This document shows positions 45,013 to 53,786 of a stretch of DNA of 64,000 bases, piece after piece (positions within the stretch are counted from its first letter, which is position 1; each line of letters opens with the position of its first letter). The DNA comes from Tropicimonas sediminicola. GTDB lineage: Bacteria > Pseudomonadota > Alphaproteobacteria > Rhodobacterales > Rhodobacteraceae. Made by a program: the position numbers and the translations under genes. Under the pieces are notes generated by a model. The model saw only the letters and a program-made list of their open reading frames with translations. It was not told the DNA's origin and did no database searches. Where the stretch lies: positions 1 to 64,000 of the forward strand of contig NZ_FZOY01000001.1 of the NCBI RefSeq assembly GCF_900188335.1. The letters are read 5' to 3'.

Positions 45013-46368
45013 TCAGATCGCGTGGCTGTGGCCGGCCTTGTCCATCTCGTAGGCGTCGAATGCCTTGGCGATCATCCGCGTGAGCGGCCGTCCAGCAGGC
45101 GGGATCTGAAGCCCCGAGCGGTCGACGGTCACGAAATCCCCGAAGGTCCGTTTCACCTCCGCGAACAGGCTGTCGACCTGATCGGCGCTGCCGCCCCAGC
45201 CGGAGAGGATCTCCTCGCGGTCGATGCGGAAATTGCACATGAGTGTCTCGATCATGCGGGCCCGCATCAGGTCCTGCCCGGCAAACGCATGGCCGCGGCC
45301 TGTGGCGAAGCGGCCTTCGCGGATTGCTTTGGTGTAGTCACCGGTGCCGGAGATGTTCTGCGCATAGCCTTGCGGGAAGCGTGAGATCGCCGAGGCGCCA
45401 AGTCCGATCAGCGCCGGGGCCGGGTCCACCGTGTAGCCCTGGAAGTTGCGCCTCAGGGTGCCGTCACGGGCGGCTTGCGCCATGGAATCGCCGGTCCGGG
45501 CGAAATGGTCGATGCCGACCTCGTCGTAGCCGTCCCAGACGAACAGCTTCCGGGCGGTTTCGAACAATTGCAGCCGGGCTTCCGGGGTCGGGAGCGCATC
45601 GGAGGGGATCAGCGTCTGTCGCCGCGCCATCCAGGGAACGTGCGCATAGCCGTAGAGCGCCACGCGGTCCGGCGAGAGCGAGAGCAGCTTCTGGACGCTG
45701 TCGGTGATCCTGGCGCGGCTCTGGTGCGGCAGGCCGTAGAGGATATCCGCGTTGAGGCTCGTCACCCCGCGGGCGCGGATGCCGTTCACCGCGGCTTCGG
45801 TGATCTCGAAGCTCTGCTCGCGGCCGATGATCTTCTGGATCTCCGGATCGAAATCCTGCACCCCGATCGACGCGCGGGTCATGCCGGCGGCGGCCAGTGC
45901 ATCGAGCCGGGCGTCGTCGATCTCGTTCGGGTCGATCTCGACCGAGAATTCGCCGCCCTCCGCCATCGGCACGGCGCGAAAGATCGAATCGGCCAGGTCC
46001 AGCATCATTTCCGCCGACAGAAGTGTCGGTGTTCCGCCGCCCCAGTGCAGCGCGGACAATTTGACGCCCTCGGGCAGGGCGGCGCCAAGCATGGCGATCT
46101 CGGACTTCAGCGTCTCGAGATATCCGGCCACCGGAGACAGGCTCGAGGTGCCCTGCGTGCGGCAGGCGCAGAACCAGCAAAGCCTTCTACAAAACGGAAT
46201 ATGAACATATAGTGACACCCTCGAGTCGGGCGGCAGGGCGCCGACCCAATCCGAGAAATGCCTCGATCCGATGCCGGACCCGAAGTGCGGGGCCGTGGGA
46301 TAGCTGGTGTAGCGAGGGACGCGGGCGTCAAAGAGCCCGAGCTTCGCAAGTTGCGATACCGTTTCCAT
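45013..46368 (-). CDS. hemN: Oxygen-independent coproporphyrinogen III oxidase
   Basis: A 451-residue radical-SAM enzyme that forms protoporphyrinogen IX without oxygen. YVHIPFCRRLCWFCAC carries the CxxxCxxC cluster motif plus a fourth cysteine (residues 50-65); HWGGGTPTLL is the SAM-binding glycine stretch, and GVQDFDPEIQKIIGREQ and YGLPHQ are HemN-specific. ATG at 46368 has AAAGG seven bases upstream; an upstream in-frame ATG is within the promoter. The gene is divergent from fnrL across a 64-bp gap containing a perfect FNR box, consistent with anaerobic control of haem synthesis. Confidence 0.95.
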   Translation of the reverse strand: METVSQLAKLGLFDARVPRYTSYPTAPHFGSGIGSRHFSDWVGALPPDSRVSLYVHIPFCRRLCWFCACRTQGTSSLSPVAGYLETLKSEIAMLGAALPEGVKLSALHWGGGTPTLLSAEMMLDLADSIFRAVPMAEGGEFSVEIDPNEIDDARLDALAAAGMTRASIGVQDFDPEIQKIIGREQSFEITEAAVNGIRARGVTSLNADILYGLPHQSRARITDSVQKLLSLSPDRVALYGYAHVPWMARRQTLIPSDALPTPEARLQLFETARKLFVWDGYDEVGIDHFARTGDSMAQAARDGTLRRNFQGYTVDPAPALIGLGASAISRFPQGYAQNISGTGDYTKAIREGRFATGRGHAFAGQDLMRARMIETLMCNFRIDREEILSGWGGSADQVDSLFAEVKRTFGDFVTVDRSGLQIPPAGRPLTRMIAKAFDAYEMDKAGHSHAI

Positions 46369-46403: not shown

Positions 46404-46417
46404 TTGATCTCAATCAA
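46404..46417. promoter_or_regulatory. Perfect FNR box between hemN and fnrL
   Basis: TTGATCTCAATCAA fits TTGAT-N4-ATCAA exactly. It is centred 42 bp from the hemN start codon and 22 bp from the fnrL start codon. For fnrL this is close enough to block transcription (autorepression). For hemN class II geometry would put the RNA start at or next to the ATG, so either a very short leader or a different promoter arrangement is implied. Confidence 0.8.
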
Positions 46418-46432
46418 GGATGGCGCGCGCGG

Positions 46433-47179
46433 ATGGAAATGCAGGAAATCGAACTGACGCATCTGGAATGCTCGGATTGTCCGATCCGTCACCGCGCGGT
46501 TTGTGCGCGCTGTGATACCCAGGAACTCGATCAGCTCGAGGAAATGAAGTATTACCGGACCTTCGAGGCTGGCCAGACCATCGCCTGGACGGGAGACAAG
46601 CTCGATTTCGTCGCCACGATGGTCAGCGGAATCGCCACCCTGAGCCAGACGCTCGAGGACGGGCGCACGCAGATGGTCGGTCTGCTTCTGCCGTCCGATT
46701 TCATGGGGCGGCCCGGGCGCGAGATGGCGAGCTACGATGTGACGGCCACCACCGACGTCGTGATGTGCTGTTTCCGTAGGCGGCCCTTCGAGGACCTGAT
46801 GCGGAACACCCCACATATCGCGCAACGCCTGCTGGAGATGACCCTCGACGAGCTGGACGCGGCGCGGGAATGGATGCTGCTGCTCGGGCGCAAGACCGCG
46901 CGCGAAAAGATCGCCAGCCTTTTGGCCATCATCGCCCGCCGCAATGCCTCGATCAACCTCGGCCGGGCAGGGGGGCGCATGGAGTTCGACCTGCCGCTGA
47001 CCCGCGAGGCGATGGCCGATTACCTCGGCCTGACGCTGGAGACGGTGAGCCGCCAGGTTTCGGCGCTCAAGCGCGAAGGGGTGATCGAGCTGGCCGGCAA
47101 GCGGCACGTGTCGGTGCCGGATTTCGACCGCCTGATGCTTGAGACGGGTGACGATACCGACGGCGGCATCCCTGTCTGA
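46433..47179 (+). CDS. fnrL: Crp/Fnr-family anaerobic regulator FnrL
   Basis: A 248-residue oxygen-sensing regulator. N-terminal cysteines C13, C16, C24 and C27 (LECSDCPIRHRAVCARC), with a further C-C pair in VVMCCFRRRPF near residue 110, are positioned to hold an oxygen-labile 4Fe-4S cluster. The cyclic-nucleotide-like sensor fold is followed by the helix-turn-helix LTREAMADYLGLTLETVSRQVSALKREGVIE near residue 190, whose E-TVSR recognition helix is that of FNR proteins binding TTGAT-N4-ATCAA. Its own promoter carries such a site, and at least four more occur within 8 kb and at the octaheme gene. Confidence 0.95.
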   Translation: MEMQEIELTHLECSDCPIRHRAVCARCDTQELDQLEEMKYYRTFEAGQTIAWTGDKLDFVATMVSGIATLSQTLEDGRTQMVGLLLPSDFMGRPGREMASYDVTATTDVVMCCFRRRPFEDLMRNTPHIAQRLLEMTLDELDAAREWMLLLGRKTAREKIASLLAIIARRNASINLGRAGGRMEFDLPLTREAMADYLGLTLETVSRQVSALKREGVIELAGKRHVSVPDFDRLMLETGDDTDGGIPV

Positions 47180-48225: not shown

Positions 48226-48315
48226 TGCGGATGCGAACCCGTATCCTCAGAAGCGAGTGAGAAACGCAAAGGGGAGGGATATTGTTCCCTCCTCCAACTA
48301 ACCAAGGGACAAACC

Positions 48316-50677: not shown

Positions 50678-50878
50678 GTGGACACATACTCCCTCATGCG
50701 CGAGTTCGCGGACAGCTGGATGCTGCTGTTCCTCGTGCTCGTGTTCCTCGGCGTGATTCTCTGGGTCTTCCGGCCCGGCAGCGCCAAGGCTCAACGCGAC
50801 AGTGCAAATATCATCTTCCGGCACGAGGACGCGCCAGCGGACCCGACGGAACTGGACCCCAAGGAGGTTCGGGAATGA
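50678..50878 (+). CDS. ccoQ: cbb3-type oxidase subunit IV (CcoQ)
   Basis: A 66-residue protein starting at GTG (50678) with GGAGGAGGGGAG immediately upstream. It has one membrane helix ([18 protein letters not shown]) and a charged cytoplasmic tail ending LDPKEVRE. CcoQ stabilises the cbb3 complex. Its stop overlaps the ccoP start (ATGA). Confidence 0.92.
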
Positions 50879-51771
50879 GCAAACAACCCGTGAAGAAAAA
50901 GACCGACGACGTCGGCACGACCGGACACAGCTGGGACGGGATCGAAGAGTACAACAACCCGCTTCCGCGCTGGTGGCTGTGGACCTTCTACGCGACGGTG
51001 GTCTGGGCGCTGATCTACACGATCTTCTTCCCCGCCTGGCCGCTGGTGAACGGGGCGACGGCCGGTCTGCTCGGCCATTCGACCCGGGCCAACGTGGCCG
51101 AGGAGATCGCCATGTTCGAGGACGCCAACGCCGGCATCAAGCAGCGGCTGGTCGAGGCGGAGCTGACCGAGATCGCGGCGGACCCGGAGCTGAACAGCTA
51201 CGCCCAGAACGCCGGCGCTGCCGTGTTCCGGACCTGGTGCGCCCAGTGTCACGGTGCCGGTGCACAAGGCGCGCAGGCGGCGGGCTACCCGAGCCTGCTC
51301 GACGACAGCTGGCTCTGGGGCGGCACGATCGAGGAGATCCACACCACGATCACCTACGGTATCCGCTACAACGACGATTCGCGCTTCGGTGACATGCTGG
51401 CCTTCGGGCGCGACCAGCTGCTGACCGAAGAGCAGATCAACCAGGTCGTCGCCTATGTGCAGCAGATCTCCGGCCAGGAGCATGACGCGGCGCTGGCCGC
51501 GGAGGGCGAGACGCTCTTCGCCGAGAACTGCGCCTCCTGCCATGCGGACGACGGCACCGGCGACATCACGCTGGGCGCACCCAACCTGACCGACGCGATC
51601 TGGCTCTACGGCGGCGATCAGGAAACGCTGTTCGAGACCCTGTGGAACGGTCGCGCCGGCGTCATGCCGCCGCGTGGCGGGGCCCCGGAATCGGCGGTCG
51701 ACGAGGCGCTGGTCCGTGCGGTGGCCACCTATGTCCACAGCCTGGGCGGTGGGGTTGCCTCCGCCGAGTGA
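50875..51771 (+). CDS. ccoP: cbb3-type cytochrome c oxidase subunit III (dihaem)
   Basis: The 298-residue dihaem electron-entry subunit. [27 protein letters not shown] is the conserved N-terminal signature and membrane anchor. Two cytochrome c domains follow, with CAQCH near residue 122 and CASCH near residue 220, each with downstream methionine ligands ([15 protein letters not shown]). It takes electrons from soluble or tethered cytochromes, for example the one at 38356. A strong terminator follows the stop. Confidence 0.96.
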
Positions 51772-51795
51772 TCGCCCAAAAGCGGTATCCACCCG

Positions 51796-51828
51796 ATGCC
51801 CCGCCTCCGTGTGCCGGAGGCGGGGCAT
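51796..51828 (+). terminator. Rho-independent terminator of ccoNOQP
   Basis: ATGCCCCGCCTCC pairs perfectly with GGAGGCGGGGCAT (13 bp, 7-base loop), followed by TCTCTTTT. It begins 25 bases after the ccoP stop and separates ccoNOQP from the next region. Confidence 0.85.
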
Positions 51829-51945
51829 TCTCTTTTGGAAGGGACACCGTGGAAACAAGTGGCCCCTGAGACGGGCCACGACACTCCGGCATGATCTAAG
51901 TGCATGGCCGATATGACAAATCAAAGGCACATCGGGCATCCGCGT

Positions 51946-51987
51946 TTGATCTGGATCAAGGTTCGGAACGGCCGCGGAACCTAAAAC
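51946..51987 (+). promoter_or_regulatory. Perfect FNR box with class II promoter, no gene directly downstream
   Basis: TTGATCTGGATCAA (51946-51959) fits the FNR consensus exactly. A -10-like TAAAAC at 51982-51987 is centred exactly 32 bp from the box centre, predicting RNA from about 51994. The next gene starts at 52341, and a strong terminator (52090-52148) intervenes, so this promoter does not simply serve ccoG. It appears to drive a short transcript. Confidence 0.6.
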
Positions 51988-51993
51988 AGGTTC

Positions 51994-52148
51994 AACGGCA
52001 ACGACGGAGCCAGCCGGCCAAACGGCCCGATGATCCGCCAAGTCGAACAAAACATAGCGTTTCCAGAGGGTGTCCTCCCCTGGAAGATACGCCCCGGCCC
52101 TCCGTCCTGTTCGCGCGTTTCCTAGGAGGTCCGGGGCGCCTTTCTTTT
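51994..52148 (+). ncRNA. Candidate FnrL-activated small RNA between ccoP and ccoG
   Basis: The predicted transcript of about 155 nt starts from the FNR-controlled promoter and ends at a large hairpin. CGCCCCGG.CCTCC (52090-52103) pairs with GGAGG.CCGGGGCG (52125-52138) at 13 of 14 positions, then CCTTTCTTTT. A second small stem-loop at 52063-52083 (CCAG-A-GGG with CCC-CTGG) exposes a pyrimidine-rich TGTCCT loop next to CCCC, an anti-Shine-Dalgarno-like feature. No open frame with a start and ribosome binding site was seen inside. An untranslated 5-prime leader of ccoG is less likely because ccoG has its own promoter downstream. No RNA data were available. Confidence 0.4.
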
Positions 52149-52260
52149 CGGCCCCCACTCACGGTTTCACATTCAATTTACCGCGCGCGACACGCGGGCG
52201 CAGTTTCTGCGGTTCCGGCATTTGGTATCACTTCCGGAACCGCGGGCGGCACGACCGCAA

Positions 52261-52303
52261 TTGATGCATGTCAATGACACCTTTTCCGTGCGCTCCGTAT
52301 AGG
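52261..52303 (+). promoter_or_regulatory. FNR box and -10 element of ccoG
   Basis: TTGATGCATGTCAA (52261-52274) departs from consensus at one position. A -10-like TATAGG lies at 52298-52303, centred 33 bp away, giving a class II promoter with RNA starting near 52310, about 30 bases before the ccoG start codon. The region 51829-52340 otherwise holds only the candidate small RNA. Confidence 0.6.
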
Positions 52304-52340
52304 GGCAGGACCGCGAACCCTCATCCACCGGAGATTTTCC

Positions 52341-53786
52341 GTGAGCGATACAGGCACACAGCCCGAACAGCTTTACGCCGCCCGTGAACCTGTCTTTCCC
52401 CGCAAGGTCAGCGGTCGCTTCCGCAACCTGAAGTGGGTGATCATGGTAGTCACCCTGGGCATCTATTACCTGACGCCCTGGATCCGTTGGGACCGTGGCC
52501 CGAACCTGCCCGACCAGGCGGTTCTGGTCGATCTCGCCAACCGGCGGTTCTTTTTCTTCTGGATCGAGATCTGGCCGCACGAGTTCTATTTCGTCGCCGG
52601 CCTGCTGATCATGGCGGGGCTCGGGCTGTTCCTGTTCACCTCCGCGCTCGGGCGGGTCTGGTGCGGTTATACCTGCCCGCAGACTGTCTGGACGGACCTG
52701 TTCATCCTCGTGGAGCGCTGGATCGAGGGCGACCGCAACGCCCGCCTGCGTCTGCACCGCCAGAAGAAGATGGATGCCCGCAAGCTGCGGTTGCGGGTCA
52801 CCAAGTATGTCGTCTGGACCTTGATCGCGATCGCCACCGGCGGCGCCTGGGTGTTCTATTTCACCGACGCGCCGACCCTGCTGGGCGATCTCTTCACGCT
52901 GAACGCCCACGCCGCCGCCTATACGTCGATCGCCATCCTGACCTTCACAACGCTGGTCTTCGGTGGCTTCATGCGGGAGCAGGTCTGCATCTACATGTGC
53001 CCCTGGCCCCGGATCCAGGCGGCGATGATGGACCCCGACACGATCACTGTGGGCTACCGCGACTGGCGCGGCGAGCCGCGCGGCAAGCATCGCAAGTCGG
53101 CTGAAGCCGAGGCGGGAGAGCTGGGCGATTGCATCGACTGCATGGCCTGCGTGAACGTCTGCCCGATGGGGATCGACATCCGCGACGGGCAGCAGCTCGA
53201 GTGCATCACCTGCGCGCTCTGCATCGATGCCTGCGACGACATCATGGACAAGATCGGCAAGCCGCGCGGCCTGATCGGCTACCTGGCGCTGAGCGACGAG
53301 ACCCGCGAGCGGGAAGGGGAGACGCCGCGGTCGGCCTGGTCGCACGTGTTCCGCGTTCGCACCATGCTCTACACCTTCCTATGGTCCGCTGTCGGCGTCG
53401 GGCTCGTCGTGGCGCTGTTCGTCCGGCCGGATATCTCGGCCACCGTCCATCCGGTGCGCCAGCCGGTCTATGTCACCATGTCGGACGGCACGATTCGCAA
53501 CACCTACGATTTCGGTCTGCGCAACAAGCACGGCGACGACCGGCGCTTCCGCGTGACGCTGGTCTCCGATCACCTCGAGTTGCGCCTCGCCGTCGAGGGC
53601 ACGCCCTACGAGAGCTTCATGGTGCCCGCCGACACCACCGGCAAGCAGCGGGTCTATGTGCTCGCGCCGGCCGGCTCGGAGGCGGCGATGGCTGACCGGA
53701 GCGAGATCCGCTTCTGGATCGAGGACCTTTCCAATGGCGAAAGGGTGTACAAGGACTCCACGTTCGTCGGCACAGGAGACAACTGA
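52341..53786 (+). CDS. ccoG: cbb3 oxidase assembly protein CcoG (RdxB/FixG)
   Basis: A 481-residue membrane iron-sulfur protein needed for cbb3 maturation, probably in copper reduction or handling. Several helices include VWCGYTCPQTVWTDLFILVERWIEGDRNARL (a FixG hallmark with a Cys pair, read in parts) and MREQVCIYMCPWPRIQAAM. Two ferredoxin-like clusters follow at residues 255-300: CIDCMACVNVCPMGIDI and CITCALCIDAC. A C-terminal Ig-like domain lies in the periplasm. It is the first gene of ccoGHIS and has its own FNR-type promoter. Confidence 0.95.
   Translation: MSDTGTQPEQLYAAREPVFPRKVSGRFRNLKWVIMVVTLGIYYLTPWIRWDRGPNLPDQAVLVDLANRRFFFFWIEIWPHEFYFVAGLLIMAGLGLFLFTSALGRVWCGYTCPQTVWTDLFILVERWIEGDRNARLRLHRQKKMDARKLRLRVTKYVVWTLIAIATGGAWVFYFTDAPTLLGDLFTLNAHAAAYTSIAILTFTTLVFGGFMREQVCIYMCPWPRIQAAMMDPDTITVGYRDWRGEPRGKHRKSAEAEAGELGDCIDCMACVNVCPMGIDIRDGQQLECITCALCIDACDDIMDKIGKPRGLIGYLALSDETREREGETPRSAWSHVFRVRTMLYTFLWSAVGVGLVVALFVRPDISATVHPVRQPVYVTMSDGTIRNTYDFGLRNKHGDDRRFRVTLVSDHLELRLAVEGTPYESFMVPADTTGKQRVYVLAPAGSEAAMADRSEIRFWIEDLSNGERVYKDSTFVGTGDN

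Follow-up and report, generated by a model that had tools for sequence, protein, structure and literature searches.

An FNR-linked hairpin of Rhodobacteraceae as a candidate small RNA for the 5′ ends of cbb3 oxidase mRNAs

Introduction

The closest described element is HRC-8-4, an RNA motif of Rhodobacterales that lies between ccoNOQP and ccoGHIS and consists of a terminator-like stem with a conserved tip (PMC8632094). Its function is given by its authors as a guess, in the portion of the paper available: either a riboswitch or a binding site of HvrB. According to the same portion, hvrB, if present, is always immediately downstream of the motif. Neither FNR nor oxygen occurs as a word in the main text of PMC8632094. 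In the literature search, the name HRC-8-4 was found only in that paper and the letters of the loop were matched in no paper; the locus goes without mention in the available portions of PMC5107571, PMC4809877, PMC5398030 and PMC8625941.

For an RNA that would act on the 5′ end of a messenger, the FasX-ska pair provides a precedent of 5′-end protection (PMC12675982, as far as available). The locus described here is compared with these and other systems at the end of this report.

Locus organization

The window is the whole stretch of DNA that was analysed (64,000 nucleotides of Tropicimonas sediminicola). The features that bear on the predicted RNA are collected in Table 1; ccoN was also named by NCBIfam in the gene search of the window.

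Table 1. Features of the window related to the predicted small RNA, its promoter and its candidate partners (sorted by position)
Feature	Position	Strand	Remarks
hemN	45013-46368	minus	Gene search
ORF with FNR-like cysteine cluster	46433-47179		FnrL by inspection only
Predicted ccoN mRNA 5′ end	48260-48272	+	GAAACGC at 48261-48267 complementary to the loop's other half (weakly supported)
ccoP	50875-51771	+	NCBIfam TIGR00782
ccoNOQP terminator	51795-51829	+	Precedes the small-RNA promoter
FNR box of the small-RNA promoter	51946-51959	+	TTGATCTGGATCAA; perfect, 0 mismatches; also in same-genus locus L002
-10-like hexamer	51982-51987	+	TAAAAC; centre 32 bp from the FNR box centre
Predicted small RNA	51994-52148	+	About 155 nt; predicted +1 at 51994; class II FNR promoter geometry
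Predicted stem-loop with the pyrimidine loop of the first-pass annotation	52060-52086	+	Outside the family-wide conserved element
HRC-8-4-like hairpin	52090-52138	+	Arms 52090-52103 and 52125-52138, 13/14 complementary
Conserved hairpin loop	52104-52124	+	GTCCTGTTCGCGCGTTTCCTA, 21 nt; core TGTTCGCGCGTT; seed CTGTTCGC
T-rich tail	52139-52149	+	CCTTTCTTTTC; sequence
ccoG FNR box	52261-52274	+	Separate from the small-RNA box
Predicted ccoG mRNA 5′ end	52309-52322	+	CGCGAAC at 52312-52318 complementary to the loop (7 nt)
ccoG	52341-53786	+	NCBIfam TIGR02745

A small RNA driven by FNR had been proposed between ccoP and ccoG by a first-pass annotation of the same DNA. The elements on which the proposal was built (perfect FNR box, -10-like hexamer at its spacing, hairpin with T-rich tail, placement after the ccoNOQP terminator and before the FNR box of ccoG) were all recovered, and comparison across genomes speaks well for the predicted RNA itself. 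No open frame was said to fit the interval; mechanical ORFs do occur in it (e.g. 52030-52125, 31 aa). An exposed pyrimidine-rich loop upstream of the hairpin had also been proposed. Its positions 52071-52076 (UGUCCU) are indeed unpaired in the predicted fold, but the C run that follows sits in the stem, and the loop that is conserved is that of the terminator hairpin. In BLASTN, the stem-loop at 52060-52086 is spanned only by the alignments of the same-genus genome (95%) and of G003 (76%), and in part by that of G182.

The predicted RNA of 155 nt folds only moderately better than its shuffles (z -1.66; 8 of 200 equally good); the case for its reality is therefore one of conservation. Rfam gave no family at gathering scores anywhere in the window and, in 51700-52400, two chance-level matches only, neither on the hairpin. 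The own genome (5.17 Mb) contains 27 FNR palindromes, 4 of them inside the window (reversed control: 2). One palindrome, at 46404-46417, is found between hemN and the FnrL-like ORF; the predicted hemN mRNA would be nearly leaderless.

Conservation and distribution of the hairpin

BLASTN with 51930-52160 gave matches in 43 of 198 genomes of the family (own genome included), mainly from 52091 to about 52150; the promoter was unaligned in all matching family genomes besides the own one. The alignment with same-genus G007 runs over the 93 nt of 52051-52143 at 95% identity; it takes in both the stem-loop upstream and the hairpin, and leaves the 5′ part of the RNA unaligned.

Duplicate loci of one genome were omitted from the two comparison sets (86 and 85 loci). 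In the first 30 loci, which were picked by BLASTN, the core of the loop is identical and the stem differs. Ninety copies were aligned by fitting to the structure of the covariance model itself; in this alignment both sides have changed in 11 of the 12 stem pairs and 95.7% of the cells are paired. Shuffles were as high in 0/500 cases for the paired cells and for the covariation score, and in 7/500 for the number of pairs. The loop core of 16 nt is near-invariant, each column being kept in at least 88 of the 90 copies. The window's copy combines the terminator-like stem, the conserved tip and a U run; a good T tail is wanting in many copies of relatives.

A covariance model carried the annotated hairpin well beyond the window: of 292 genomes sampled from the order of the window, all of them members of its own family (Rhodobacteraceae), 156 gave a match. 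This number is a lower bound; the model missed some carriers. Named carriers include records of Roseovarius, Ruegeria, Sagittula and Paracoccus. In a sample of the class (240 genomes), beyond the own genome and one other genome of the family, only 10 weak matches were obtained (23.8-26.8 bits). A scan of genome contigs with 15 bases was too short (motif in 21 of 80 listed loci, 22 matches).

The carriers are thus Rhodobacterales, and the hairpin is located in the ccoP-ccoG interval or near it. Judged by its location, its taxa and its architecture against the text description of PMC8632094 as far as available, the hairpin is the published orphan motif HRC-8-4.

Tandem copies are found, 2 to 5 per genome and some about 91 bp apart (L077, L081, L082, L040; G379, G376). 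The hairpin is away from ccoP in L011 (G009) and L018 (G190); the neighbours are a Usp gene and a metal P-type ATPase gene in the former, zinc-transporter and MFS genes in the latter. In L013, a LysR-type gene (511-1431) is upstream of the hairpin, unlike the placement of hvrB given in the available text of PMC8632094.

Promoters of the hairpin copies

Promoters were compared in 85 loci with 91 copies: 60 attached (within 100 nt after ccoP; this includes L028, which is weak at 26 bits), 26 detached, and 5 second tandem copies that were set aside, none of which has a perfect FNR box of its own. None of the 60 attached copies, located in the ccoNOQP 3′ UTR, is preceded by a perfect FNR box at 20-230 nt. 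Detached copies have their own perfect box in 25/26, and the 26th has a box with one mismatch (detached vs attached: Fisher 8e-21; background 0.06 per 210 nt). Joint conservation of box and hairpin, on which the annotated RNA depended, is thus observed, the box being absent where transcription of ccoNOQP can supply the RNA.

When 25 promoters were aligned on their box (the window's included), 22 had A at -11, 22 had T or C at -12 and 14 had T at -7, with CA frequent at the start; the pattern is that of class II, and the spacing of the upstream box is the one expected of an FNR-dependent small RNA. In 9 of the 25, the box is 62-72 nt ahead of the motif; the RNA would therefore be hardly more than the hairpin there. 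A perfect FNR box was also found in 50/50 ccoN leaders. Because detached copies have their own box and all these ccoN leaders have one, transcription of the hairpin is probably driven by FNR in almost all cases examined.

Complementarity to the 5′ ends of cbb3 mRNAs

The seed of the loop, CUGUUCGC, is complementary to GCGAACAG; the complement of the full loop is AGGAAACGCGCGAACAGGAC, part of which recurs in ccoG leaders. Each leader of 68 ccoG loci with a classic loop and an FNR promoter was compared with the loop of its own genome. Complementarity is highest at the predicted +1, where 16/68 loci have 6 nt or more and 9-10 have 7 nt or more; at offsets that do not overlap this peak, 0-7 loci have at least 6 nt and 0-1 at least 7 nt. 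Duplex energies agree (z below -2 at +1 in 17/68), and the other 51 of the 68 ccoG 5′ ends, i.e. most, give no such value and no clear match. A second energy peak is found at -32, in promoter DNA of ccoG (15/68), with smaller ones at -28 (10/68) and +24 (8/50). The ccoN leaders of classic-loop genomes (50, one genome twice) have no clear peak at +1, and ccoN is not supported by them as a general target. Since most classic-loop genomes are without a clear ccoG match and ccoN is not general, a loop that is near-invariant should have further partners. Matches within the reading frame of ccoG (LYAAREP) were discarded by eye as coding artefacts.

A pattern made of an FNR box, 30-60 nt and GCGAACAG was searched in the 292 genomes. 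It gave 114 sites in 91 genomes (reversed control: 6), for a word that was picked after inspection of ccoG leaders partly from the same genomes, and in related genomes that are not independent. The gap from box to word is 33-37 nt in 78 of the 114 and exactly 34 nt, which corresponds to +1, in 51; by eye, 5 of the 78 are the hairpin read backwards. GAAACGC, a control word from the second half of the loop, has a gap of 33-37 nt in 23/94, an even spread giving about 15 (reversed control: 8). Eighty-two of the loci with these sites were examined and contain 92 instances (G228 twice): 51 at ccoG, 12 at ccoN, 1 at hemA and 28 others. Among the 28, about 12 were recognised, by cluster and by eye, as the hairpin read backwards, and 7 precede an ORF of 79 aa, the word overlapping the ribosome site. 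In these 7 loci (L385, L393, L434, L435, L436, L439, L440), ribosome site and start of the ORF overlap GGAGCGAACAG, downstream of a perfect FNR box; the product presumably is a DUF465-type protein. The distance from site to start codon varies, from about 10-26 nt in ccoG to 39-49 nt in ccoN (starts chosen mechanically). Conserved complementarity is found at the 5′ ends of ccoG and ccoN in part of the lineages and is not general in classic-loop genomes.

Twenty genomes that were negative with the covariance model were sampled; ccoP was found in 19. Eight of the 19 have the GCGAACAG site, and in all 8 CTGTTCGC follows the ccoP match at a distance of 22-50 nt. The seed is in the loop of a clear hairpin in 6 of them; in L374 and L375 the minimum-energy fold is not clean and a hairpin-like stem was read from the letters. 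Outside the seed, the loops of the 8 are not alike. In the 11 genomes without the site, TGTTCGC, TGTTCGT and TGTTTGC are all absent within 900 nt. Seed and site thus go together in 8/8 vs 0/11 genomes and, by genus, in 4/4 vs 0/9 (Fisher 0.0014). In three of the 8, the ccoG site is about 78 kb (G216), 20 kb (G220) and 1.4 Mb (G226) from the ccoP hairpin; since seed and site co-occur without linkage there, pairing would have to be in trans.

Candidate partners in the own genome

A start near 52309 is predicted for the ccoG mRNA, which would begin with GACCGCGAACCC; its CGCGAAC would pair with GUUCGCG of the loop. Over the 54 box-strands of the own genome, complementarity to the loop is highest at +1 (at least 6 nt in 10, at least 7 nt in 4), other offsets that do not overlap +1 giving 1-7 and 0-3, respectively, with the upper values near -32. 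Besides ccoG, the starts with at least 7 nt at +1 are those of ccoN, hemN and an ORF of 95 aa; hemA has a match of 9 nt to the loop. The ccoN, hemN and hemA matches are weak hints, because the second half of the loop (GAAACGC) barely exceeds an even spread near +1. Haem, copper or cytochrome genes had been suggested as targets by the first-pass annotation: complementarity points to the cytochrome (cbb3) system, through ccoG and, in some lineages, ccoN, and only weakly to haem genes.

The gene hemA was found in 40/40 genomes with the hairpin, 30 of which were examined, and 30 more genomes were added. Exact complements of at least 9 nt in the hemA leader were found in 7/30 and 3/30 of these, vs 0/20 genomes taken as lacking the hairpin, 8 of which in fact have the seed word after ccoP. 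Of 1000 shuffled loops, 0 and 4 reached the two counts. The hemA leader is kept as a hint and not as the main target: the energy test is weak, and hemA was chosen from the match in the own genome.

The extended complement of the loop has 21 matches in the own genome (up to 3 mismatches, hairpin included) vs 14 for the reversed control, i.e. no clear enrichment. The word CGAACAGGA, searched 2-12 nt before ATG in 20 genomes, greatly exceeds the reversed control (29 occurrences vs 4 in the own genome); from their number and spread alone, these were judged to be mostly coding words.

Discussion

Comparison across genomes adds to the published motif a linkage to FNR boxes, covariation of the stem with a near-invariant loop core, convergent neighbours, complementarity at the predicted +1 and a co-occurrence of seed and site that includes genomes with a distant ccoG. 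On these grounds, an FNR-dependent small RNA that pairs with the 5′ ends of cbb3 mRNAs, whatever the sign of its effect, is the probable reading of the locus. In the window's lineage the RNA would be driven by its own class II FNR promoter; most of the copies compared (60 of 91) are placed in the ccoNOQP 3′ UTR. The fixed seed of the loop would pair, in the cell, with the extreme 5′ ends of mRNAs made from FNR promoters, foremost that of ccoG and, in several genera, that of ccoN; the match of 7 nt to ccoG in the own genome may be sufficient. Since the site keeps an almost constant spacing to the box and a variable one to the start codon, we infer that pairing acts on the 5′ end of the mRNA and not on the ribosome site. 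Pairing might then most likely shield this end from 5′-end-dependent decay, which would tie the supply of CcoG and CcoN to the low-oxygen programme. Within the probable reading, such a stabilising effect is advanced tentatively.

Repression is nearly as likely as stabilisation. The same RNA and the same pairing could have a negative effect, as feedback or as an incoherent feed-forward brake, by blocking translation or by inviting an RNase; this is possible, if somewhat doubtful. The leaders of ccoG are short, and pairing at +1 would be near the ribosome footprint; OppZ and CarZ, which are cut from 3′ UTRs, repress their own mRNAs in the account available (PMC7398697). However, the site is tied to +1 and not to the start codon, at the distances given above for ccoG and ccoN. 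In R. capsulatus, FnrL is reported as a repressor of ccoGHIS in the available part of PMC4634722, a report that leaves the sign of the RNA effect undecided.

That the hairpin would merely be a structured terminator, or a 3′ end that stabilises the ccoNOQP mRNA, with a loop bound by protein, is unlikely. It would suit the 60 of 91 copies that are within 100 nt of ccoP, but detached copies have their own FNR promoter, a separate ccoNOQP terminator precedes the hairpin in the window, and the complement of the loop recurs at +1 of ccoG.

The published guesses, a riboswitch embedded in a terminator and acting on the downstream gene or a binding site of HvrB (speculation in the available text of PMC8632094), are very improbable here. 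A terminator-like stem with a conserved tip would agree with them, and LysR-type genes adjoin the hairpin in 2 of 10 neighbours scanned (L013, L015). Against them, a downstream gene was called for 85 copies and is convergent with the hairpin in 13 of these (11 loci); of the 72 neighbours on the same strand, 53 are separated from the hairpin by a perfect FNR box, these genes having been called by a simple codon score that may be wrong in single cases. Sixty of the 91 copies directly follow ccoP; tandem copies and the co-occurrence of seed and site likewise argue against a cis function. The same-strand regulated gene that a cis riboswitch calls for is wanting in the 13 convergent copies; in the window, ccoG does share the strand of the hairpin, yet an FNR box of its own precedes it.

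Equally improbable, CTGTTCGC/GCGAACAG could be bound as DNA by a transcription factor, both at the start points of ccoG and ccoN and in the hairpin: a DNA site and a complementary RNA pair look alike, but in the 90 aligned copies the word is in the loop of a covarying stem and in one orientation, and a DNA site needs no stem.

The reading preferred here is thus that of an RNA which pairs with mRNA 5′ ends. Its general form is plausible, though short of probable: the FNR promoters of the cbb3 system would place GCGAACAG at +1 as a tag, and a single hairpin, found widely in the family and itself driven by FNR, would pair with this tag in trans and set the life of the messages at low oxygen. An orphan conserved RNA motif would thereby gain a concrete and testable role, that of an FNR-linked RNA coupling the oxidase operon to the assembly operon. 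If pairing at +1 is true, the same few nucleotides would set the promoter geometry and the RNA recognition, which to our knowledge is uncommon among bacterial small RNAs.

The published HRC-8-4 motif shares with the hairpin described here its Rhodobacterales hosts, its ccoNOQP/ccoGHIS location, its terminator-like stem and its conserved tip; the account of PMC8632094, as far as available, mentions neither FNR promoters nor a complementarity to the 5′ ends of mRNAs. The comparisons that follow likewise rest on the available portions of the papers cited. The small RNAs RSs0019 and RSs2461 of R. sphaeroides, a member of the same order, are FnrL-bound (PMC4263372); RSs0019 is listed on chromosome 2, whereas cco is on chromosome 1. 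FnrS of Escherichia coli is also a small RNA under direct control of FNR (PMC4263372), with other partners; the RNA described here is often part of a 3′ UTR, and the window has no Rfam match at gathering scores. As with OppZ and CarZ, which are processed from 3′ UTRs (PMC7398697), the 3′ UTR of an operon would feed back on the system that the operon encodes; the partner here would be mainly the ccoG mRNA. In the FasX-ska pair of Streptococcus, a small RNA is likewise bound at the 5′ end of an mRNA; host and regulator are unrelated, and the stabilisation shown there is the effect proposed here (PMC12675982).
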